Part shown: in pieces, positions 1,823-25,164 of the stretch | Layout: each line of letters opens with the position of its first letter | Position numbering within the stretch: the stretch's first letter is position 1 | IMG/VR virus record: IMGVR_UViG_3300042395_000142 | Coordinates: 1-25,164 of that record | DNA: 25,164 bases | From: a virus | Reading direction: 5' to 3' (one strand) | Notes under the pieces: model-generated | The model's database searches: none | Seen by the model: the letters and a program-made list of their open reading frames with translations, nothing else | What the model was told of the DNA's origin: nothing | Position numbers and translations under genes: made by a program

Positions 1823-2384
1823 TTTAAAATTACAAAATGTTGACTTTGATCTATTTGCCGCACTCGACGCATTAGATCGCAAAGACTACGGATATTTTGA
1901 TAGCTTAACTGAGGAACAACAAAAGAAGTTTGTACCCTACATGATGTTGCATTGGGTTAGTTCAATCAAAAAACAGGGTGAGGTTGGTAAGTATTACGTA
2001 CTAGCAACTGAAGAATTTGCCAATAAGCATGTGTTTAATGAGTATGTACAACGTCATCCAAAATTGCAGTGGTTAATGTTATGTATAGTTAGTCCTGATA
2101 TGGGTAAACAATTTCACCAATGGATACCACAATTAAGCAATAAAATTAGTGAATTAAAAACCAATAGTAAATCAAAAGATTTTTCGGATTATTTGAGTAA
2201 AATATATAATACTGCAGATACTGTGTCTATTCGTGAGTTAAGTACACAATTATCTACTGAGCAAAATAAGAAGTATCGATTAGCACAATTATTTCCATCA
2301 ATGAAATTAATTGATATTGAAATTTTATCTAAACATGTTACTGATGAGGAATTAGCAGAGTATGAGCAACAGTGTGGCAAATAA
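1809..2384 (+). CDS. Possible gp62-like clamp-loader small subunit, divergent
   Basis: A 191-residue soluble protein that appears mainly helical. Residues 14-55 contain DLFAALDALDRKDY and then KKFVPYMMLHWVSS; later there is HPKLQWLMLC and HQWI. This order (DLF, a charged stretch, F/Y-VP, LQ, then a tryptophan-isoleucine near the middle) resembles the small phage clamp-loader subunit family (T4 gp62), whose members help the ATPase subunit gp44 open the sliding clamp. The C-terminal VTDEELAEY pattern also recalls the helical end of that family. This is a weak, memory-based match and the protein is longer than the short marine-phage versions, so 'conserved unknown' is the fallback. It overlaps the genes on both sides, in a replication-flavoured chain. 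Confidence 0.45.
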   Translation: MKDSDLKLQNVDFDLFAALDALDRKDYGYFDSLTEEQQKKFVPYMMLHWVSSIKKQGEVGKYYVLATEEFANKHVFNEYVQRHPKLQWLMLCIVSPDMGKQFHQWIPQLSNKISELKTNSKSKDFSDYLSKIYNTADTVSIRELSTQLSTEQNKKYRLAQLFPSMKLIDIEILSKHVTDEELAEYEQQCGK

Positions 2385-3051
2385 TACATGTGAATTTTGT
2401 AATAAAGTTTTTGTCAGAGAAAAATTATTCATTAAGCATCTTTGTGAACCAAAACGTAGGTGGTTAGAACGTGACATGCAAGTAAATCGTTATGCGCATG
2501 GTGCGTGGAAATTTTATTTCACCAAACATCACCCATCAACTAAAAAGACAGATTATATTGATTTTACACGTAGCCCATACTATATGGCATTCATGCAGTT
2601 TGCTACCTACTGTTTAAACACTAACGTCATTAACATTCATTACTTTATTGATTATCTCATTTCACATAAAGTGCCAATTAATTTATGGTGTAGTGATAAG
2701 GAATATTCTAAGTTTTTAATCGATTATTTAAAAACCGAAGATGTTGATGATGCCACAAATCGTAGTTTGGGCACATTAGAAGAAATGTGTCGTGATGAAA
2801 ATATACAAATTAAAGACGCATTTAAGTTTTTAAATGAAAATCGTCTATGTCAAAAAATATATCAAGGTATGATCAGTCCATGGGTATTGTATAATTCTGA
2901 TACTGCCATTGATTTTTTGTCACGGTTAAATGATGATCAAGTTAAGATTATCTACGATTATATTAACCCTGATATATGGAAAATAAAAGTATATCGTGAA
3001 AAAGCCACTAATAATAAAATTAAAAGCACATTAGTACAGCACCAATTATGA
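2362..3051 (+). CDS. Unknown protein with N-terminal C2HC zinc finger, 229 aa
   Basis: The amino end carries C10-x2-C13-x12-H26-x-C28, a compact C2HC zinc-knuckle-like motif, followed by a basic patch (PKRRW). The remaining 200 residues are aromatic-rich and probably helical, with no known domain; two striking segments are SPYYMAFMQFATYC (about residues 71-84) and ISPWVLYN (about 171-178). The motif suggests nucleic-acid or protein binding. The ATG overlaps the upstream gene by 23 bases, with a GAGGA about 11 bases before it; the stop overlaps the next start (ATGA). Placement between a possible clamp-loader subunit and a polymerase-like protein suggests a DNA-transaction role, but that is inference. 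Confidence 0.7.
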   Translation: MSNSVANNTCEFCNKVFVREKLFIKHLCEPKRRWLERDMQVNRYAHGAWKFYFTKHHPSTKKTDYIDFTRSPYYMAFMQFATYCLNTNVINIHYFIDYLISHKVPINLWCSDKEYSKFLIDYLKTEDVDDATNRSLGTLEEMCRDENIQIKDAFKFLNENRLCQKIYQGMISPWVLYNSDTAIDFLSRLNDDQVKIIYDYINPDIWKIKVYREKATNNKIKSTLVQHQL

Positions 3052-3671
3052 AATTCAAAAGTGATATTGATATAGATTTTGCAAATCGTGATGATATATT
3101 GCAACATATTAGACACGTTTCTGCACACCTTAAATCAAACAATAAACTACGTAAGCATCCTACAGGCGTATACGTAACCGAGATACCTTATGATCCTATT
3201 AATGATTGGAGCGCACTAAATTATCATGAAGCAGAAAATCGTGGTTATGTTAAACTAGATTTTTTAAATGTATGGATTTACAAATATGTACGTGATGAAG
3301 AACATTTAACTGAATTAATGCGTGATCCACAATGGAGTAGATTAAAGGAAAAAGAATTCTTCCAAAAACTAATTCATATTGGGGATCATTATGACAGTAT
3401 GCTTAAAATGCCACAAGAGATTGATTCAATCCCTAGAATGGCAATGTTTTTATCGGTGATACGGCCTGGGAAGCGGCATTTGATTGGTAAATCATGGGCA
3501 GATGTTGCGCTAACTGTATGGGACCAAGGTAATGACGGATATTCATTTAAGAAATCCCATAGTATTGCATATGCACATTTAGTTATAGTGCATATGAATT
3601 TGCTTGATGAGTTGGGATTACATGCGCTTGACGAGAGTGATACTTCGTCGCTTGATGCGTCTTTTGGTTAA
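3048..3671 (+). CDS. Miniature C-family (DnaE/PolC-like) polymerase-related protein
   Basis: 207 residues. The sequence repeats, in order, the landmarks of the bacterial DNA polymerase III alpha polymerase domain: SDIDIDFANR (5-14) like the DnaE PDxDxDF box with its two catalytic aspartates; KHPTGVYV (36-43) like the DnaE rHaaGvvi segment; GYVKLDFLN (66-74) like the KFDFLGL box carrying the third catalytic aspartate; VIRPGKRH (137-144) like LyRPG; and GYSFKKSHSIAYA (164-176) like GYGFNKSHSAAYA. All three aspartates (D6, D8, D71) appear kept, while the thumb and most of the fingers are too short or absent, because the DnaE polymerase region spans several hundred residues. It may be a stripped polymerase, a nucleotide- or DNA-binding relic, or a regulator. 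ATGA overlap links it to the zinc-finger gene. The last 17 codons overlap a convergent gene. Confidence 0.62.
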   Translation: MKFKSDIDIDFANRDDILQHIRHVSAHLKSNNKLRKHPTGVYVTEIPYDPINDWSALNYHEAENRGYVKLDFLNVWIYKYVRDEEHLTELMRDPQWSRLKEKEFFQKLIHIGDHYDSMLKMPQEIDSIPRMAMFLSVIRPGKRHLIGKSWADVALTVWDQGNDGYSFKKSHSIAYAHLVIVHMNLLDELGLHALDESDTSSLDASFG

Positions 3672-3992
3672 TTCACTTATACTAGTGGCAGGACCATGTA
3701 TTATTGTTAATGATTTATTATTAAAGGTTTTAAGATAGGGTTTAAATGGCGACCATTCATCTTTAAGAAATATGTTAATGGGTATAAGTCGATTACTTTC
3801 CCACCACCATACATCACCAAGTTCTAAAAATAATTTTTTTAGTTCTTGTTCTATGATTGCTCCGTAATCATAAAAAGTAGTTACATCATCGTCACGATTT
3901 TGTATGACACCAATGTATTCTTGTCCTGCATATGCGCAAACAGTTATGAATGGATGGTTTGCACTCAATTTTTTTAAGAAATCTGATGACAT
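3618..3992 (-). CDS. Unknown minus-strand protein, 124 aa
   Basis: The frame reads as a genuine protein, not an antisense shadow: it covers about 320 bases where no plus-strand gene exists, begins with ATG, and has normal composition. Notable segments are a tryptophan-rich GDVWWWESNR (about residues 58-67), the following PINIFLKDEW, and a basic C-terminus rich in Arg and Lys. The start of the chain (CAYAGQEYIGVIQN) looks like a small beta-barrel, but no family is recognised. It is divergent from the structural gene at 4019 and convergent with the polymerase-like gene, whose 3' end it overlaps by 54 bases. An exact TATAAATA late element on the minus strand (4050-4043) lies about 50 bases upstream, so late expression is likely. 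Confidence 0.7.
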   Translation of the reverse strand: MSSDFLKKLSANHPFITVCAYAGQEYIGVIQNRDDDVTTFYDYGAIIEQELKKLFLELGDVWWWESNRLIPINIFLKDEWSPFKPYLKTFNNKSLTIIHGPATSISELTKRRIKRRSITLVKRM

Positions 3993-4910: not shown

Positions 4911-4939
4911 TTGAATACGTAAGTGTTTTGTGTCATAAT
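4911..4939 (+). promoter_or_regulatory. Sigma70-like promoter before primase
   Basis: TTGAAT (4911-4916), 17-base spacer, CATAAT (4934-4939). The predicted transcript start (about 4946) falls at the primase ATG (4948), so the message would have essentially no leader. Confidence 0.6.
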
Positions 4940-4947
4940 TGTGGCGC

Positions 4948-5928
4948 ATGAATACGATCATTAATCAGACCTTACAATTTTGGTCACAACGTAAGACCAA
5001 GCGTACATCAGGTGGATGGGTATCTGCCAATGCGGTATGCTGTCATCATCGTGGTCATCGACCTGATACAAGGATGCGTGGAGGTTTAATTCATACTGAA
5101 GAAAAGTTAACCTATTCATGCTTTAATTGTAATTTCAAATGTGGCTATGCAGCAGGTAAATTATTTTCCTCGCATTTTAAATTATTCTTATCATGGATTG
5201 GCATGGGCGATGATGAGATACAGCATCTTGCCATAGAAGCGATGAAATTGCGTGATACAACGCAACTTATTCAAAAACGTGAAATACGTGAGATTGTATT
5301 TAAAGATATACCTTTACCCAAAGATGCTATTCCTATAGATCCAACGATAGGTACACATCAACCATATGTAGATTTTTTGAACAACCGTGGGTTTACACCA
5401 CAAGACTATGATTTTTATATTACCCCACATGCAGAAGGTAGGGATCGTGATAGAGTAATTATACCGTATTATCTTAATAATAGAATGGTGGGGTATACTA
5501 GTAGATATTACGATAATCGTAAACCTAAGTATATTTCTGAGCAGCAATCAGGATATGTGTTTAATATGGACGCACAACATCCAACGTGGCAAGTATGTAT
5601 TCTAGTAGAAGGGCAATTTGACGCTTTAGCTATTGGTGGATGTGCTATAATGTCCAATCAAGTATCCGAAAAACAATCATGGTTACTTGCAAAGTTGGAA
5701 CGAAGAATAATTTTTGTGCCTGATCGAGATGAAGCAGGTATGAGTGGTATTGATTCAGCATTAAAACTTGGTTATTCAGTTAGTATTCCTCCTTATTGGG
5801 ATAAGACTGTTAAAGATGTAAATGATGCTGTTATTAAATATGGTCGTTTTCCAACATTATTAAGTATTATTCAACATGCAACAACAAGTGCCGCAAAGAT
5901 AAAAATTTATAAAGATAAAATACTATAA
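4948..5928 (+). CDS. 61: DNA primase, gp61-like
   Basis: 326 residues from the ATG at 4948; an upstream in-frame TTG is less likely because it would overlap the -10 box. The amino end has a zinc-binding region with CCHH (31-34) and CFNC (58-61), as in bacterial-type primases. The TOPRIM catalytic core follows: ILVEGQFDA with Glu221, and VPDRDEAG with Asp259 and Asp261, which bind metal for RNA primer synthesis. T4 gp61 works with the gp41 helicase to prime lagging-strand synthesis, and the helicase gene starts one base into this stop, matching that partnership. A sigma70-like promoter ends only eight bases before the ATG and there is no ribosome site, so the message may be leaderless. Confidence 0.92.
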   Translation: MNTIINQTLQFWSQRKTKRTSGGWVSANAVCCHHRGHRPDTRMRGGLIHTEEKLTYSCFNCNFKCGYAAGKLFSSHFKLFLSWIGMGDDEIQHLAIEAMKLRDTTQLIQKREIREIVFKDIPLPKDAIPIDPTIGTHQPYVDFLNNRGFTPQDYDFYITPHAEGRDRDRVIIPYYLNNRMVGYTSRYYDNRKPKYISEQQSGYVFNMDAQHPTWQVCILVEGQFDALAIGGCAIMSNQVSEKQSWLLAKLERRIIFVPDRDEAGMSGIDSALKLGYSVSIPPYWDKTVKDVNDAVIKYGRFPTLLSIIQHATTSAAKIKIYKDKIL

Positions 5929-7313
5929 TGGAATATACAACAGACGTACAGAAATTCTTCCTATCAATGATGATCACTGAGCCTAACTTATTTGTTCGTG
6001 TTCAGAATATATTGAATCCTGAAAACTTTGACCGTAAATTAAAAGACACGGTAAAGTTTATGATTGATTTTTCAAATAAGTATCATGTCATACCTGATGT
6101 AGAAAAGATTAAATTAACAACGTCCGTTGAGTTAACACGTATTGCAGACTTGCGTGAACAAGATACAGAATGGTTTTTTGATGAGTTTGAAAAGTTCACA
6201 CGTAAACAAGAACTAGAACGTGCTATTTTAAAGAGCGCAGAGTTACTTGAAAAGGGTAACTATGATCCTGTTGAGAAAATTATTAAAGATGCAGTACAGA
6301 TTAGTTTAACTAAAGACTTAGGTACAGATTATTTTGATGACCCAAAAGGACGTTTATTAGCGATTAAACAAAACAATGGACAGATGAGTACGGGATGGCC
6401 TGTGCTTGATAATAAGCTATATGGTGGGTTTAATCGTGGTGAATTACAGTTATTTTTGGGTGGAAGTGGTTCAGGTAAATCATTATTCATGCAAAATTTA
6501 GCAGTTAATTGGGTACGTGAAGGTTTAAATGGTGTATATATAACCTTAGAACTTAGTGAAAACCTATGTTCATGGCGTATAGATAGTATGATGACTGACA
6601 TTGCTACCAAGGAAATATTTAAAAATATTGACGATGTAGAGTTAAAGATTAAGATGGCACAGAAAAAGTCAGGTCGCTTGTTTGTCAAATACTTACCTGC
6701 ACAAAGTAATATTAATGATATTAGATCATATTGTAGAGAGTTACAGGTACAAACTGAAAAGAAACTAGACTTTATGTGTATTGATTATATGGATTTATTA
6801 ATGCCTGTATCTGTTAAAATCAGTGCAAGTGATTTGTTTACAAAGGATAAATTTGTATCTGAAGAATTGCGTAATTTTGCTAAAGAATTAAATGTATTAT
6901 TTGTAACAGCTAGTCAATTAAACCGTAGTGCTGTTGAAGAAGTTGAGTTTGATCATAGTCATATCAGTGGTGGTATTAGTAAAATTAACACTGCTGACAA
7001 TGTTTTTGGTATTTTTACTAGTAGAAACATGCGTGAGCGTGGTCAATATCAAGTACAATTAATGAAAACACGTAGTAGTAGTGGGGTTGGACAAAAAGTG
7101 AACCTAAGATTTAATGTTGATACGTTGAGAATTTATGATGATGAATCAGACAATGATGTTCAACAAACTACAACATCCAATATTTTAGATCAAATTAAGG
7201 TAGGTAGTAACGTTATTGAGAGCAAAGTTGAAGAATCTGTAAAAGTACCTACGGCAAGTATGAGTACCAATCTAAAGGCTAAGCTAGCGCAAATAAAGGG
7301 TATTTCTTCATGA
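5928..7313 (+). CDS. 41: Replicative DNA helicase, gp41/DnaB family
   Basis: 461 residues, close to T4 gp41 (475). The amino domain (about 1-130) is helical, as in DnaB N-domains that bind primase. The RecA-like domain carries Walker A GGSGSGKS (178-185), the catalytic glutamate in TLE (206-208), Walker B with MCIDYMD (283-289), and a downstream TASQLNR (327-333), typical of DnaB-type H3. It would form the hexameric 5'-3' helicase of the fork. A low-complexity Val/Lys/Ser-rich tail follows the core (about residue 405 on). The start shares one base with the primase stop (taATG), so coupling is expected. No ribosome site precedes the ATG. Confidence 0.94.
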   Translation: MEYTTDVQKFFLSMMITEPNLFVRVQNILNPENFDRKLKDTVKFMIDFSNKYHVIPDVEKIKLTTSVELTRIADLREQDTEWFFDEFEKFTRKQELERAILKSAELLEKGNYDPVEKIIKDAVQISLTKDLGTDYFDDPKGRLLAIKQNNGQMSTGWPVLDNKLYGGFNRGELQLFLGGSGSGKSLFMQNLAVNWVREGLNGVYITLELSENLCSWRIDSMMTDIATKEIFKNIDDVELKIKMAQKKSGRLFVKYLPAQSNINDIRSYCRELQVQTEKKLDFMCIDYMDLLMPVSVKISASDLFTKDKFVSEELRNFAKELNVLFVTASQLNRSAVEEVEFDHSHISGGISKINTADNVFGIFTSRNMRERGQYQVQLMKTRSSSGVGQKVNLRFNVDTLRIYDDESDNDVQQTTTSNILDQIKVGSNVIESKVEESVKVPTASMSTNLKAKLAQIKGISS

Positions 7314-10998: not shown

Positions 10999-11319
10999 AT
11001 GATTAGGTTAACTGAAGTAGCAGCAAACAAAGTTAAAACATTATTAGAAAACCGTGGGCGTGGAATAGGAATCGCAGTCGGTGTAAAAACCACAGGCTGC
11101 AGTGGTTTAGCATATACCCTAGAATATGTTGACCAAGTTCAAATTGGTATGACTATACATGAATCATATGGTGTACACGTTTATACAAAACCTGAGCACC
11201 ATGTATATCTCAATGAATTAGAAGTAGATTATCAGAAAAAAGGATTAAACGAAGGATTTGAGTTCATCAATCCACTCGAAAAAAGTCGTTGTGGTTGTGG
11301 CGAAAGTTTTACTGTTTAG
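10999..11319 (+). CDS. iscA: A-type iron-sulfur cluster carrier (IscA/SufA/HesB family)
   Basis: 106 residues, the usual length of the family (E. coli IscA 107). All three cluster-binding cysteines are present in their normal setting: C34 in TTGCSGLAY, and C98 and C100 in CGCGESF at the C-terminus. The GLNEGFEFINP segment also matches IscA closely. The protein passes [2Fe-2S] or [4Fe-4S] clusters to target enzymes. In this phage it could support Fe-dependent host functions, or phage enzymes that need iron during infection, including the iron-dependent ribonucleotide reductase. It lies just downstream of virion genes and just before an early-type promoter. Marine T4-like phages are known to carry such genes as host-derived auxiliary genes. 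Whether it is isc- or suf-type cannot be told. Confidence 0.9.
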   Translation: MIRLTEVAANKVKTLLENRGRGIGIAVGVKTTGCSGLAYTLEYVDQVQIGMTIHESYGVHVYTKPEHHVYLNELEVDYQKKGLNEGFEFINPLEKSRCGCGESFTV

Positions 11320-15230: not shown

Positions 15231-17555
15231 ATGACAATACACGTAATTAAGCGAGATGGATCTCGTGTTCCCTTAGATATCGCAAAAATACAGCGTCAGG
15301 TACAGAATGGATGCCGTGGTATCGATAATGTTAGCCCAAGTATGGTTGAAATTAGAGCACAAATTCAATTTACCGATGGCATGACAACCGAAACCATTGA
15401 TAAACTATTGCTCAAGGCAATGGTTGATTTGATTGATGAAACTGAAAACCCTGAAACTAACCATGTTAACTACCAATATGTAGCAGGTCGCCAACGTGTT
15501 TCTATGTTGCGCAAAGAAGTCTATGGAAAATATGAACCACCACGTTTATACGATATTATAAAACGTAATGTTGAGTTAAGTATGTATACCCCTGATTTGT
15601 TGGAGTGGTATAGTGAACAAGAATGGGATACGATTGAGTTATTTTTAGATCATGATAAAGATCAAAAATACACCTATAGTGCGATTGAACAGCTATGTGA
15701 AAAGTATCTTGTACAAAATCGTGCTACAGGTAAAATTTATGAAACTCCACAAATAAGATATGCTATTGCAGCAGCTACAGCATTTCACAATGAACCAAAA
15801 GATACTAGATTAAAGTTAGTAAAGGAATATTATGAGTGCGCTTCAGATGGTCATTTCACTCTTGCCACCCCTGTGCTTGCTGGGCTTGGGACTACTACTA
15901 AACAGTTCAGTTCTTGCGTTCTTATCAGTAGTGATGATACCCTTGATAGCATATTTGCTGCAGGAGAAATGATGGCAAAGTATGCGAGTAAACGTGCAGG
16001 TATTGGGTTAGAAATCGGTAGAATTCGTCCATTAGGTGCACCTATTCGCAATGGTGAAATTAAACATACAGGATTAGTACCATTTTTAAAGAAATGGTTT
16101 GCTGACCTTCGTTCATGCTCACAAGGTGGTATTCGTAATGCAAGTTGTACGGTTACACTTCCTATATGGCATGCACAATTTGAAGATTTTATTGTACTAA
16201 AAAATAATCAAGGTACCGAAGAAACACGTGTACGACAAATGGATTATAGCATTGTTGTAAGTAAACTATTTTGGCGCAGATATAAAAACAATGAAAATAT
16301 CACATTGTTTGACCCACATGAAGTACCTGATTTATACGAAGCTTATTACAGAGATATAGTTGAATTTGAGAAATTGTATGTTAAATATGAACATGCAAAG
16401 AATATCAAGAAAAAAGTTATCTCTGCTGAAGAAATATTTAAAAATGGTATATTAAAAGAAAGAACAGATACAGGAAGAATATATTTTGTCAACATTGATA
16501 ACGTTATTAAACAAAGCTCTTTTGATACTAAAACAGATCCTATATACCAAAGTAATCTTTGTCAAGAAATACTACTACCAACTCGTCCGTTCCAAAGAAT
16601 TGATGACCCTAATGGCAGGATTGCCCTATGCACATTAGGTAGTATTAATTGGGGTGCATTTAAAACACCACAGGATATGCGCAAGGCATGTCGTGTGCTT
16701 GTACGTAGTTTAAGTAATTTACTAAGTTACCAAGATTTTCTTAGTGTACAAAGTGCACTAGCTAATAGCGAGTTCGAACCATTAGGAGTTGGTGTTACCA
16801 ATCTTGCTTATTGGCATGCACGTAGAAATTATTCTTATGGTGCACCTGATGCACTTGCTGAAGTAAAACGTTGGATGGAACATCAAGCATTTTATTTAAC
16901 AGAAATGAGTGTAGAACTAGCACAAGAGCGTGGCTCATGCCACCGTAGCCAATATACTTATTATGGCAAAGGTGTTTTTCCATGGGAGCGTAGAGCAGAA
17001 GGTGTCAATGATTTAACTGATTTTACACCAAGTATTGATTGGGAACCATTACGTGCAAAAATGAAACAATATGGCATTCGTAACGCAACGTTAATGGCTA
17101 TTGCACCTGTTGAGTCTAGCTCAGTAGTACTGAATAGTACAAATGGTATTGAAATGCCTATGGAATTGATCAGTGTTAAGGAAAGCAAAGCAGGTAGTTT
17201 TGTGCAGGTAGTTCCTGAGTACAAACGATTAAAAGGTCGTTATCAACTCATGTGGGAACAAACAGATTGTGTGGATTATTTAAAAACTGCAGCAGTTTTA
17301 GCAGCATATATTGATCAAAGCATAAGTACGAACACGTTTTACAATCCTGCACATTATGAAGGAGGTAAGGTACCTGCTACCATAGTTGCTAAAAATTTGA
17401 TGTTAGGCATACATTGGGGGCTTAAGACATATTATTACTCATTGATTAATAAGATGGGCGCAAAGGCAGCATTAAAAGATGACAATGTTATTCCATTTAC
17501 GCCACCCATTGAAGAAGAATTTTTAGAAGAAGATTGTGAAGCTTGCAAATTATAG
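15231..17555 (+). CDS. nrdA: Class Ia ribonucleotide reductase, large (alpha) subunit
   Basis: 774 residues, like E. coli NrdA (761). An N-terminal ATP-cone is present (HVIKRDGSRVPLDIAKIQ). Active-site residues are visible: C229 (SSC) and C467 (LCTLG) as the redox pair, and N442, C444, E446 in SNLCQEI for radical chemistry. The radical-transfer tyrosines are in TYYYS near 734-736. The C-terminal shuttle pair is C769 and C772 (CEAC), spaced by two residues instead of the four in E. coli. With NrdB it makes deoxyribonucleoside diphosphates for phage DNA. An AGGA ribosome site precedes the ATG, and nrdB follows after two tiny genes. Confidence 0.96.
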   Translation: MTIHVIKRDGSRVPLDIAKIQRQVQNGCRGIDNVSPSMVEIRAQIQFTDGMTTETIDKLLLKAMVDLIDETENPETNHVNYQYVAGRQRVSMLRKEVYGKYEPPRLYDIIKRNVELSMYTPDLLEWYSEQEWDTIELFLDHDKDQKYTYSAIEQLCEKYLVQNRATGKIYETPQIRYAIAAATAFHNEPKDTRLKLVKEYYECASDGHFTLATPVLAGLGTTTKQFSSCVLISSDDTLDSIFAAGEMMAKYASKRAGIGLEIGRIRPLGAPIRNGEIKHTGLVPFLKKWFADLRSCSQGGIRNASCTVTLPIWHAQFEDFIVLKNNQGTEETRVRQMDYSIVVSKLFWRRYKNNENITLFDPHEVPDLYEAYYRDIVEFEKLYVKYEHAKNIKKKVISAEEIFKNGILKERTDTGRIYFVNIDNVIKQSSFDTKTDPIYQSNLCQEILLPTRPFQRIDDPNGRIALCTLGSINWGAFKTPQDMRKACRVLVRSLSNLLSYQDFLSVQSALANSEFEPLGVGVTNLAYWHARRNYSYGAPDALAEVKRWMEHQAFYLTEMSVELAQERGSCHRSQYTYYGKGVFPWERRAEGVNDLTDFTPSIDWEPLRAKMKQYGIRNATLMAIAPVESSSVVLNSTNGIEMPMELISVKESKAGSFVQVVPEYKRLKGRYQLMWEQTDCVDYLKTAAVLAAYIDQSISTNTFYNPAHYEGGKVPATIVAKNLMLGIHWGLKTYYYSLINKMGAKAALKDDNVIPFTPPIEEEFLEEDCEACKL

Positions 17556-17770: not shown

Positions 17771-17964
17771 TGAAAGAATCAGCAGTTGAAGCATTAGTAG
17801 TTACGCTAAAATCTGAGGTTGATGATATTAATGCTTTAATATCAAAATTATATGCACAATATGGTGTTGATGTGTTATTAAATTTTGATCATAACAATGG
17901 TTTAGGTATTGCACCAAAATTAAGTGTTATGAGAATTACACAAACAGTGGATTATACAAAATGA
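17770..17964 (+). CDS. Unknown tiny protein before nrdB, 64 aa
   Basis: An acidic small protein beginning with a helix (EALVVTLKSEVDDINALISK, about residues 7-26) and ending with a glycine-containing beta-like part. It has a good ribosome site (AGAGGTGAG) and overlaps the previous and next genes by one and four bases, which supports genuine expression. Not recognised. Like its neighbour it may be an accessory of the reductase or just carried in the operon. Confidence 0.6.
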   Translation: MKESAVEALVVTLKSEVDDINALISKLYAQYGVDVLLNFDHNNGLGIAPKLSVMRITQTVDYTK

Positions 17965-19067
17965 GTAAAGAACAATATAACTTAAAAACAAAAGTAGATT
18001 ACTTAAACCGTCATATGTTTTTGGATGGTGCAATTACTGTACAAAGATTCGAAGAAGTCAAATATCCAAAGATTGCAAAGTTTGAAGAAACTGCACGTGG
18101 ATTTTTTTGGGTACCTGAAGAAGTTACACTAACCAAAGATAAAATGGATATGAAAGATGCTAGTGAAGCCATTAAACATATCTTTACTAGTAACTTGTTA
18201 CGACAAACTGCACTTGATAGTATACAAGGTCGTGCACCATCACAAGTGTTTACTCCTGTAGTAAGTTTGCCTGAACTAGAAGCACTAGTAAACAATTGGT
18301 CATTCTTTGAAACCAATATTCATAGTAAAAGCTATAGTCATATTATACGTAATATTTACGGTGTACCAAAAGATGTATTCAATACTATTCACGATACACA
18401 AGAAATTATTGATATGGCATCTAGTGTGGGCAAATACTACGATGAGTTACATAAGCTAAATTGTTTGAAAGAAACTTCTGAAGCTCCTTATATTCCTTTC
18501 CTTGAATCAACACATATTAAAGCAATTTGGTTAGCACTTAACGCAAGTTATGCATTAGAAGCATTTCGTTTTATGGTATCATTTGCTACAAGTTTAGCGA
18601 TGGTAGAGAACAAGATCTTTATTGGTAATGGTAATATTATTAGTTTGATATTGCAAGATGAATTATTACATACTGAATGGACAGCATGGATGATTAATCA
18701 AGTAGTCAAAGAAGATCCACGTTTTGCAAAAGCTAAGGTTGAATGTGAACAAGAAGTATACGCACTGTATGAAGATGTTATACGTGAAGAAAAATTATGG
18801 GCAGATTATTTGTTTAAGAAGGGACCTGTTATTGGTTTAAATGCTGATATATTAAAAGATTTTGTGGATTACACTGCTTTTTCTAAGCTTAAGGATATCG
18901 GTATTAAATATCAGGGCAGTCATCCTAAGAGCAATCCTATTCCTTGGTTTAACAAGCATTTAAACGTTAACAAGAAACAGGCAGCTTTACAAGAAACAGA
19001 AAGCACAAGTTATGTTATTGGCGTAATGAGTGATACAGTTGAAAAGGAATTACTGCCTGAACTATAA
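17961..19067 (+). CDS. nrdB: Class Ia ribonucleotide reductase, small (beta) subunit
   Basis: 368 residues (E. coli NrdB 376). Di-iron ligands and the radical tyrosine are all visible: D86 (LDSIQGR), E117 and H121 (FFETNIH), Y125 (SKSY), E200 (ALEAF), and E234 and H237 (DELLH). It generates the tyrosyl radical passed to NrdA. One oddity: E117 and H121 are four apart, where E. coli has ETIH with three, so one residue is inserted in the ligand pair, while H121 to Y125 keeps the normal spacing of four. It overlaps the previous gene by ATGA, so coupling with the small gene is likely. The stop is followed after eight bases by the next gene. Confidence 0.95.
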   Translation: MSKEQYNLKTKVDYLNRHMFLDGAITVQRFEEVKYPKIAKFEETARGFFWVPEEVTLTKDKMDMKDASEAIKHIFTSNLLRQTALDSIQGRAPSQVFTPVVSLPELEALVNNWSFFETNIHSKSYSHIIRNIYGVPKDVFNTIHDTQEIIDMASSVGKYYDELHKLNCLKETSEAPYIPFLESTHIKAIWLALNASYALEAFRFMVSFATSLAMVENKIFIGNGNIISLILQDELLHTEWTAWMINQVVKEDPRFAKAKVECEQEVYALYEDVIREEKLWADYLFKKGPVIGLNADILKDFVDYTAFSKLKDIGIKYQGSHPKSNPIPWFNKHLNVNKKQAALQETESTSYVIGVMSDTVEKELLPEL

Positions 19068-19075
19068 GGCATATA

Positions 19076-19474
19076 ATGGATTTAAAACTTGCTAAAAAGA
19101 TACTTAATAGTATTAAGTGGAGCATGAATAGAAACAAAATAAGTCAAAGACCTGTCAAAGATATTATATTAAGCCCACAAGATATTATAGAGATTTATAA
19201 CAAGCAGGAAGGAAAATGTTATTGGACTAATGTCAATTTGGATACAAAGTATAATTATATTGCGTATCACCCACTTGCAATTAGTGCAGACAGAAGAGAT
19301 AATACGCAACCATATGTGAAAGATAATATTGTATTAACAATGAGAATATTAAATTTAGGTAGACGTGAGTTTCCTGAAAATGAGTTTCCCAAAGTTATTG
19401 ATCATTTGATGGAAAATTTCGCAGTACAATACTTGAATAAAAAGGAAAAAAATGAAAGCAATTGTATGGAGTAA
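19076..19474 (+). CDS. HNH-like endonuclease, putative
   Basis: 132 residues. The central region has the order of HNH-type nucleases seen in phage homing enzymes: GKCYWTN (46-52), then HPLAIS (65-70), a DRRDN (72-76) corresponding to the usual DRiD, YVKDNI (80-85), and later RILNLGR (90-96). The family normally shows a His before the DR, here H65. The typical zinc cysteines are absent, so activity is uncertain. It sits between nrdB and glutaredoxin, a locus type where phage homing endonucleases are often found. AAGG precedes the ATG. A homing or regulatory role is inferred; it may be degenerate. Confidence 0.58.
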   Translation: MDLKLAKKILNSIKWSMNRNKISQRPVKDIILSPQDIIEIYNKQEGKCYWTNVNLDTKYNYIAYHPLAISADRRDNTQPYVKDNIVLTMRILNLGRREFPENEFPKVIDHLMENFAVQYLNKKEKNESNCME

Positions 19475-19673
19475 GTACCATTGTCAATATTGTGAACAAG
19501 CAAAATCATTATTAAAACAAAAAGGTATTGAGTTTGAAGAACGTAAAATTGGTGATGGATGGACTAAAGAAGATTTATTGGAAGTAGTTCCAACAGCTAG
19601 AACAGTTCCTATAATTTTTCTTAATGATGAATACGTAGGTGGATTTGAACAACTTAAACAGAGGTTAATGTGA
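19452..19673 (+). CDS. grx: Glutaredoxin
   Basis: 73 residues, a minimal glutaredoxin. Active-site C11-Q-Y-C14, the cis-proline P53 in TVPIIF, and the GGFEQL glutathione-binding turn (63-68) are all present. It would reduce the C-terminal cysteine pair of the phage ribonucleotide reductase, using glutathione. The AAGGA ribosome site and the 23-base overlap with the HNH-like gene place it in the same operon. T4 nrdC is a comparable protein in a related setting. Confidence 0.9.
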   Translation: MKAIVWSKYHCQYCEQAKSLLKQKGIEFEERKIGDGWTKEDLLEVVPTARTVPIIFLNDEYVGGFEQLKQRLM

Positions 19674-23910: not shown

Positions 23911-24289
23911 ACATAATTTAGAGCATGATATAATAAAGTCACCTTGGTTTCTAGAAAAATTAGAAAACAGGGTGTATGCTCAAAATTTGTATGCTGCAAT
24001 ATGTAATAACAGGTTTTTTAAACTAGACGATACATTTTCTATTTTAAAAGATGAGTCTAACTGGACTGCATCATGGAGAAGCGCAGGTGAGATTGTAGCT
24101 AGATTACGTAATCGTAAAGAAGATTATCTAGACTACTATTGTAGTGGCATCAATGATGTTGGTACATTCTCTAATTGGAATGAATTTGAAAAAGCTGTTG
24201 TTTCAGGATTTGTTGAGGAAAGTGTAGTAACCGATGAAATCAGAGCAGATTTAGAAAAAATTGGTTGGATAGTTAAATCGTACGATTAA
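23894..24289 (+). CDS. Unknown protein, 131 aa
   Basis: A soluble, acidic protein. FSILKDESNWTASWRSAG (about residues 48-65) and DYLDYYCSGI (about 77-86) are its most distinctive segments, and the C-terminal part is ADLEKIGWIV (about 118-127). The pattern of conserved W, C and G residues suggests a real conserved phage protein, but I cannot name its function. The ATG overlaps the previous gene by 17 bases and lies six bases after an exact TATAAATA, so its message may be almost leaderless. It ends convergently with the PP-loop gene, overlapping by four bases. Confidence 0.68.
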   Translation: MEPSVKHNLEHDIIKSPWFLEKLENRVYAQNLYAAICNNRFFKLDDTFSILKDESNWTASWRSAGEIVARLRNRKEDYLDYYCSGINDVGTFSNWNEFEKAVVSGFVEESVVTDEIRADLEKIGWIVKSYD

Positions 24290-25164
24290 AATATATCATT
24301 GGTACCAACTTCTCCATCAATAAGCTTAGCAAAGTTATTATTCCATTTAATCACAGACTTGTATTCACCATACTTTTCAACTAAATCACGATTGAGTTTT
24401 TTAGGATTCCATAATAGTAATTCTAAATTTTCCCACCCATAGCTTCGTTTTCTAATATCTAAGTAACCATATCCTAAATCAATTGCCATATTATGTTTTA
24501 AAATAGGTATTTTTCTAAACGTACCATCAGCAACATCATGCTCATATATCCTATGATGTGATTCTATAAAGAACTTACAACTTTCTGTACTATGACCTAA
24601 CATATTCCCAATACCATGAATACCTTTGTCCTTCATATATAAGTCATAACAATTATAATTGTATCGTTGTGGACTATATATTTTCTTTTCAATCCAAGGC
24701 CAAAAATAATCACCACCAAGTACAGGAAATCCACTTAATTGTTCCACTAACCAAAAATGTGTGGCAACGTGAAACTGTGAAATTCCGTATGGGTCCAAAT
24801 AATCAGCATATTGAATTTCAAAAAACTTTTCTATATCTAAATCAATGATAGTATGATTTATTTTATTTTTACGACAAAATTTCTCGCTATAGTATAAATC
24901 ATGTGTGTTGATAGGATAACTGTTTAATAAAAACCGTAACGTATATGCACGTAAGGGTACATTTTGTTTTTTCAAACTAATGATAGTCATTTCACTATCT
25001 ACCCCACCGCTATATAATATATCAACATACTTAGTTTGTTTCTGTGACACATGATCAGCTAACACCTCATGAATCGTTTGATATTGGGTTTGCTCAACAT
25101 CAAGTAATTCTAAGGTAAAAGTGTGTGTATCATAATCAAGCGTTGCGTAGCGATAATTATTTTT
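24286..25164 (-). CDS. PP-loop ATPase, asparagine-synthase-like, 5' end missing
   Basis: The frame stays open from the stop at 24286 to the right edge, so the amino end is beyond the window; a GTG at 25065 is only an internal candidate. 292 residues are visible. The ATP-binding PP-loop SGGVDS lies at nucleotides 25011-24994, followed by alternating strands and helices and a downstream GGDYFWPW segment. These N-type pyrophosphatases adenylate a substrate, as in asparagine synthetase, QueC or tRNA-modifying enzymes. The closest impression is the asparagine-synthase C-terminal domain, but no substrate can be named. A glutaminase domain could lie outside the window. It is the only long minus-strand gene here and overlaps its convergent neighbour by four bases. 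Confidence 0.78.
   Translation of the reverse strand, partial: KNNYRYATLDYDTHTFTLELLDVEQTQYQTIHEVLADHVSQKQTKYVDILYSGGVDSEMTIISLKKQNVPLRAYTLRFLLNSYPINTHDLYYSEKFCRKNKINHTIIDLDIEKFFEIQYADYLDPYGISQFHVATHFWLVEQLSGFPVLGGDYFWPWIEKKIYSPQRYNYNCYDLYMKDKGIHGIGNMLGHSTESCKFFIESHHRIYEHDVADGTFRKIPILKHNMAIDLGYGYLDIRKRSYGWENLELLLWNPKKLNRDLVEKYGEYKSVIKWNNNFAKLIDGEVGTNDIF

Follow-up and report, generated by a model that had tools for sequence, protein, structure and literature searches.

A C-terminal half of the predicted split, minimal DNA polymerase III alpha subunit in a phage record of IMG/VR

A phage-specific minimal DNA polymerase III (Pol III) alpha subunit, made as two proteins from distant genes, has been predicted by comparative genomics in group 2.2 jumbo phages, and in the passages of Iyer et al. 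(2021; PMC7824862) that concern it, this split subunit accompanies a family B polymerase and is suggested to aid in one-strand synthesis or repair. We analyzed the virus record IMGVR_UViG_3300042395_000142 of IMG/VR over positions 1 to 25,164 (hereafter the window, a stretch of 25,164 nucleotides), and found that its open reading frame (ORF) at 3048-3671 on the plus strand, with an ATG start and 207 aa, is the C-terminal half (C-half) of a split minimal C-family polymerase, the N-terminal half (N-half) being encoded by a separate gene in relatives. The system at 3048-3671 is the one predicted in 2021 (PMC7824862), since its domain content matches that described in those passages and the window protein, like their C-terminal unit, stands alone as the C-terminal piece that comprises palm, template-binding part and metal ligands; the split enzyme is therefore not new as a kind. 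Beyond those passages, we provide invariance counts, a constant cut site, models that tile the polymerase chain, a list of lost segments and neighborhood counts, and we extend the system to a 141-kb phage, to hundreds of environmental contigs and to the window's own member. The window protein belongs directly to the PHROGs family phrog_11778 (E 7.1e-54) and the N-half to phrog_11127; both families are labeled 'DNA polymerase', and the labels are silent on their being halves of one enzyme. Compared with DnaE1 (the E. coli Pol III alpha) and PolC, the system shares the palm and O-helix boxes, the metal aspartates and the steric-gate histidine, and is of the DnaE type at D405. Unlike these single chains (1,160 residues in E. 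coli), its palm is cut in two, and it has no PHP domain, little of the thumb and of the fingers, and no residues corresponding to those past ~795.

The earlier note, made from the sequence alone, had claimed that this ORF carries the C-family boxes in DnaE order together with the three catalytic aspartates, and both claims hold. The boxes SDIDIDF (residues 5-11), GVYV (40-43), KLDFL (69-73), IRPG (138-141) and GYSFKKSHSIAYA (164-176) follow one another as do PDFDVDF (400-406, with D401, D403 and D405), GGVVI (513), KFDFLGL (553, with D555), FRPGP (638) and GYGFNKSHS (753) in E. coli DnaE, and since we located these motifs in the E. coli protein, D6, D8 and D71 can be equated with D401, D403 and D555, respectively. 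On the plus strand, the codons of D6, I7, D8, I9 and D10 (3063-3077; E. coli D401, D403 and D405) specify the first two metal ligands and the third Asp of the DnaE type, those of K69-L70-D71 (3252-3260; E. coli K553 and D555) the third metal ligand, those of R139-P140-G141-K142 (3462-3473) the RPG box, which aligns with its E. coli counterpart (639-641), and those of FKKSHSIAYA (3546-3575) the equivalent of the O helix, where H171 corresponds to the steric-gate H760 of E. coli. Metal ligands of the D401, D403 and D555 type are described as absolutely conserved across the whole C-family, and D405 as conserved in the DnaE groups and replaced by Asn in PolC, in the passages of PMC3919608 on these residues; thus, the family of the window protein is DnaE-like at D10. 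For E. coli Pol III, H760 is proposed to be the steric gate in the corresponding passage of PMC8485763.

The remaining part of the palm, with its GxGRGS loop, is absent from the window protein and sits in another gene in the relatives. Among 15 C-half-bearing records (9 phage records and 6 longer IMG/VR contigs picked from those in hand), the Pfam profile DNA_pol3_alpha matched 14; in all of these the match was to another small ORF at a separate location and was confined to profile positions ~16-98; the sole record without a match is a 73-kb fragment. These second ORFs, the N-halves, have 168-185 aa, and all of the 79 aligned ones match DNA_pol3_alpha at E 0.01 or better. Their end follows the consensus WGVGRGSSVASYVLYLIGxHKVNSLxYxLDxxEFLK, with variants such as EFFR and ELSKEM, and most finish in EFL(K/N), where E. 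coli DnaE has ERFLN (389-393). This stretch is the part of DnaE that directly precedes PDFDVDF, where the C-half family starts. The cut site is constant: the N-half stop lies 35-37 residues past GxGRG in 120/120 loci (chosen by the GxGRG motif, with a few repeats included), and the D-x-D-x-D of the C-half begins at residue 2-30 in 226/226 loci (ORFs of 180-219 aa; the motif filter dropped 9 of 235 loci, several of which are the same contig twice). When the motif filter was dropped, none of the C- or N-half matches in the fetched loci exceeded 450 residues between stops, so that no fused form was seen among them. Accordingly, a self-contained mini-polymerase is ruled out, because another gene encodes the palm part with GxGRGS and the window protein is not a complete palm in one chain; the strongly shrunken C-family-like domain proposed earlier stands as to its shrinkage, not as to its being a domain in itself, since it is only the C-terminal half.

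Cyanobacteria are known to have split DnaE inteins, and by this precedent a split intein might join the two halves post-translationally into one chain. We hold this to be very improbable: the halves end and begin near the polymerase boundary, with little room for intein segments, and general Pfam scans listed none, no intein profile having been run on the halves as such. A different, intein-related split, that of the family B polymerase of phage MIJ3, is described in the relevant part of PMC6892783, and this phage also carries a C-family pair matched by both of our halves.

Two side observations concern other forms of such enzymes. A 91-kb IMG/VR contig with a C-half (G037) also encodes an unsplit, PHP-less C-family polymerase of 574 aa (L417:1435-3159, plus strand), shortly after a DnaB-type helicase and an endonuclease III-like gene (names given by eye), and this protein could be an intermediate form linking full DnaE to the split one. 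Two proteins of Corynebacterium phage P1201 in BFVD (A7IYC9 and A7IYD0; 476 and 652 aa), each carrying the name putative Pol III alpha, were weak matches, and perhaps represent an independent split of a C-family polymerase.

The window protein is a homolog of the C-family, DnaE-like polymerases beyond chance. Searched alone against Pfam, PDB sequences and NCBIfam, it gave nothing relevant, and profiles were needed to detect the homology. The profile comparison that the earlier note had proposed was made against a nine-sequence C-family alignment including E. coli DnaE, whose numbering we use. hhalign placed the C-half profile on it in three collinear pieces (3-19 on 398-416, 34-141 on 508-641 and 152-183 on 739-772) and the N-half profile in one (59-168 on 269-393), with probabilities of 96% and 93%, respectively. 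The best piece of the C-half scored 75.4, whereas the highest of its 60 controls (59 with shuffled columns, one reversed) reached 24.2; for the N-half the best piece scored 59.6 and the highest of 60 controls 25.7. When PDB sequences were searched with the profiles, all nine matches of the C-half were Pol III alpha chains (best E 0.013), as were 9 of the 19 matches of the N-half, including the first seven (best E 0.086). Of 18 family members, 7 matched the Pfam Pol III finger domain with an E-value of 1 or lower, the lowest being 6e-5.

Structure prediction, also proposed in the note, led to the same family. The AlphaFold2 models of the window protein (84 sequences) and of the N-half of G003 (79 sequences), where the C-half shares 69% identity with that of the window, reached a mean predicted local distance difference test score of 91.2 and 90.9, respectively. 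With Foldseek against the PDB, C-family polymerases occupied ranks 1-11 for the C-half and 1-8 for the N-half. VIA-align, which is a second look at Foldseek's own matches for both halves, aligned 196 residues of the C-half to PolC 3f2b with Z 10.1 and a root-mean-square deviation (rmsd) of 3.2; its 15 best rows were all C-family (Z 6.2-10.1), the next row having Z 2.7. All 11 rows of the N-half were C-family (best Z 12.1, 103 residues, rmsd 3.0), and residues ~1-60 of the N-half had no counterpart in them. The separately modeled halves tile the E. coli chain 2hnh, with the N-half on 278-393 and the C-half on 397-791, and the same tiling is seen in Taq 2hpi (291-455 and 459-849). Among the 21 best C-half matches to predicted viral proteins, 12 are named, all of them (12/12) as DNA polymerases, and 9 are nameless.

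The active site is strictly conserved in both halves. D6, D8, D10, H37, G40, K69, D71, R139, P140, K142, H171 and Y175 are identical in 177/177 alignable complete C-halves, the invariance of H171 and Y175 being partly preconditioned since the two IMG/VR profile scans were seeded by FKK..H..Y; K69 and D71 were seeds in no viral scan, and D6 and D8 lie within one of the six seeds of the window-protein scan (MKFKSDID). Likewise, R99, E103, G134, G136, R137, G138 and S139 are identical in 112/112 N-halves, the invariance of GxGRGS being partly preconditioned by the N-half scan, which was seeded mainly by GxGRGSS. These are counts of distinct sequences without motif filter, restricted to ORFs at E 1e-10 or better; 2 of 180 C-halves and 2 of 114 N-halves were left out as incomplete, and so was L303, whose N-terminal part is in another frame. 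The ratio of nonsynonymous to synonymous substitution rates (dN/dS) of the window's gene was ~0.10, 0.17 and 0.15 versus L005, L006 and L007, respectively, indicating purifying selection on the C-half gene.

These results bear on the relic and decoy readings raised in the note, which fit poorly with the catalytic invariance in 177/177 and with the pairing of two genes. Homology to the palm of host DnaE and small size might be expected of a non-catalytic regulator or decoy that binds host Pol III subunits or blocks host replication, a reading that we regard as improbable because the catalytic residues are invariant in both halves, dN/dS is low (~0.10-0.17), and no clamp-binding, PHP or OB part could be aligned. 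Even less can be said for a decaying relic of a full DnaE: the protein is indeed fragmentary beside DnaE, yet its scans of IMG/VR returned many intact copies (315 relatives with the window protein, and at least 597 and at least 586 in two profile scans, the three sets overlapping), and the constant cut site, the invariant active site and purifying selection all argue against decay, making this reading highly improbable.

The two halves also occur together. Of 21 N-half-bearing records, 14 also have a C-half, including 10/10 of those of at least 180 kb. In a second set, of C-half records, the N-half profile matched in 9 of 13, namely 8 proper N-halves and the unsplit 574-aa polymerase of G037, and an N-half is present in each of the five viral records that measure 178 kb or more; thus, both halves are present in every searched record of at least 178 kb. 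A hand comparison of phage records found 58 of the 60 listed with the C-half also among the 60 listed with the N-half; the exceptions are Slicko01, in which Pfam DNA_pol3_alpha revealed an N-half, and W12-3 (109 kb), which was not among the N-half matches listed. The genes for the halves are ~5 kb to over 200 kb apart (~5-15 kb in G033, G036, G038, Slicko01 and XacN1, ~34 kb in RaK2, and more than 200 kb in Phosso). The note had expected a family B polymerase in such a phage, and one was indeed found in relatives, in 12 of the 15 C-half-bearing records searched with Pfam DNA_pol3_alpha and in 5 of 8 records of a further set. The records without a family B match are of 154, 102, 76, 148, 162 and 13 kb, whereas 14/14 of those of at least 178 kb were positive; no family A polymerase was found in the 15 records (0/15), and no family B polymerase in the 25-kb window record.

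Taken together, we consider with a probability of roughly three in four (about 0.74) that the window protein forms the C-terminal part of a minimal DnaE-like enzyme composed of two subunits, which works as a DNA nucleotidyltransferase alongside a family B replicase. What we observe is that both halves are homologous to adjacent parts of one chain, that their catalytic residues are invariant and their cut site constant, that they co-occur in relatives and that both genes are located among replication genes. From this we infer physical association of the halves, catalysis, the presence of an N-half in the window's phage and a role in replication. Several points weigh against this reading. Taken alone, the E-values of the PDB profile searches are weak for both halves, and so are those of Foldseek (best 0.0076 for the C-half and 0.079 for the N-half). 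Seven N-half records of 88-136 kb are without a C-half; conversely, no N-half was found in the 25-kb window itself, which is a fragment, in three records of 23-28 kb (also fragments) whose C-half gene is identical to the window's, or in one C-half record of 148 kb. In a mirror-tree analysis over 27 genomes with both halves, the correlation was 0.88 against a maximum of 0.50 in 2,000 permutations, a value that reflects co-inheritance, not binding, and is expected of any two core phage genes. The C-half gene of XacN1 lies away from the primase and helicase genes, its N-half gene being near a helicase and a clamp loader gene. No experimental study of a split Pol III alpha was among the matches listed for the open-access literature, with subscription journals and preprints lying outside that search. 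Finally, template-directed synthesis is not assured, because most of the thumb as well as QEQ and R709 are gone.

This last point rests on the segments that are lost relative to full C-family polymerases. E. coli 1-268 has no counterpart in either half, 417-507 is replaced by ~14 residues, 642-738 has ~10 residues in its place, and nothing corresponds to the part beyond ~795; we take 1-268 to comprise the PHP domain and more, and 417-507 to be most of the thumb. Accordingly, the alignments and models contain no PHP domain, thumb, QEQ and R709 finger motifs, (HhH)2 or clamp-binding motif. It is conceivable, though unlikely in our judgment, that the halves assemble into a small nucleotidyltransferase that is not template-directed and acts in end-tailing, nick or gap filling, or modification of nucleotides or nucleic-acid ends. 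Such an enzyme would agree with the replacement of 417-507 and 642-738 by so few residues, with the absence of QEQ and R709, which lie within the lost 642-738 and are present in 9/9 C-family proteins compared, and with a total of only ~375 aa for the two halves; against it stand the retention of the O helix and of the steric-gate H171 (177/177), suggesting selection for deoxynucleoside triphosphates (dNTPs), and the fact that in most loci the two genes are surrounded by others for replication.

In the two-subunit DnaE-like enzyme that we favor, the N-terminal subunit would supply the helices of the palm together with the GxGRGS loop, a nucleotide-binding motif of the Pol-beta-like fold, and the C-terminal subunit would supply the strands with the three metal-binding aspartates, K69 and a short O helix with the steric-gate histidine. 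Where the two chains meet, one palm with a stub of the fingers would be rebuilt, so that GxGRGS, the aspartates, K69 and the O helix would surround a single active site. As the steric gate is kept, dNTPs are the likely substrate, and as the thumb and finger motifs are lost, the grip on DNA would be weak and synthesis short unless a partner helps. Its role would most plausibly be short DNA synthesis, for instance primer extension or gap filling, followed by a hand-over to the family B replicase.

The surroundings of the gene in the window are in agreement with the T4-type replication neighbors claimed earlier. Downstream on the plus strand lie a T4 gp61-like primase (4939-5928; phrog_47, E 1.5e-39) and a T4 gp41-like, DnaB-type replicative helicase (5928-7313; phrog_19, E 1.1e-69), each of which was found in 29 of the 39 distinct C-half loci with at least 4.3 kb downstream. 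A small convergent ORF on the minus strand (3618-3992; phrog_11637 in PHROGs) overlaps the 3' end of the C-half gene and is present in 37 of the same 39 loci. Upstream, a zinc-finger-like protein (2362-3051, plus strand; phrog_11058, E 2.9e-47) has a stop that overlaps the C-half start by 4 bases; the C2H2 model matched this product with E 0.046 only, below the model's cut-off. A relative of this gene is present in 38 of the 44 distinct loci with at least 3.3 kb upstream. For 107 of 154 nonredundant C-half ORFs an upstream ORF was found, and 91 of these overlap the C-half ORF or sit within 10 bases of it, a count favored by taking as start the ATG nearest a four-base overlap; only 39/107 have a Cys-His pattern. 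The possible clamp-loader subunit that the note had placed at 1809-2384 gained no support from sequence searches, in which PHROGs, Pfam, NCBIfam and PDB sequences gave no such similarity. In relatives, clamp-loader (gp44) genes adjoin the N-half rather than the C-half gene: among the distinct N-half loci with at least 2.9 kb downstream, 73/76 have gp44 and 76/76 a GroES-like gene, which lies ~0.7 kb downstream of the N-half (loci L126-L227). The annotated records of RaK2, Cassandra and Phosso show the same gene orders. The counts on distinct loci were obtained by tblastn with a few query proteins, so that some neighbors may be missed, and they supersede counts on loci with repeats (58, 48, 45 and 53 of 60; 81 and 78 of 81).

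Since the C-half gene is mostly by the primase and helicase genes and the N-half gene by the clamp loader gene, primer extension or gap filling would be the most attractive role. We tentatively suggest, as a specific form that we consider rather unlikely as it stands, a nearly thumbless, trans-assembled C-family polymerase that extends the RNA primers of the phage primase briefly before the family B replicase takes over, while a partner, for example the product of the gene immediately upstream, makes up for the missing grip on DNA. Eukaryotic Pol alpha and Gram-positive DnaE have primer-extending roles, and the proposed phage enzyme would be a counterpart to them.

Elsewhere in the window we noticed, on the plus strand, an iron-sulphur cluster biosynthesis gene (Fe-S_biosyn; 10999-11319, Pfam E 1.4e-15) and a group of genes for the large and small chains of ribonucleotide reductase and a glutaredoxin (15231-17555, 17961-19067 and 19452-19673), and on the minus strand an asparagine-synthase-like protein (24286-25164; Pfam E 8.5e-4, just below the curated cut-off).

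By tblastn, the C-half family is present in 63 phage records, and 56 of the 60 listed exceed 200 kb (phages of the 121Q, RaK2, PA5oct and Paride types, Atu_ph07, SCTP-2, XacN1 and others); among the remainder is Slicko01, a 141-kb record that is called complete. A scan of genome contigs gave 4 relatives among 20 pattern matches, all four in metagenome-assembled genomes (MAGs); the contigs of these C-half genes (L405-L408) are assigned to archaeal, Elusimicrobia, Neomarinimicrobiota and gammaproteobacterial MAGs. We considered a cellular origin and set it aside, the four MAG relatives being probably misbinned phage contigs.

Since the family includes isolated phages with laboratory hosts (RaK2, 121Q, Cassandra and Atu_ph07), the split-enzyme reading can be tested directly. 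If active, the enzyme would be the smallest C-family polymerase core known to us, with ~375 residues in two chains versus 1,160 in E. coli, and it would reveal which elements of the main replicase of bacteria are dispensable for catalysis. If the reading is true, a large group of phages would run two unrelated polymerase families side by side.
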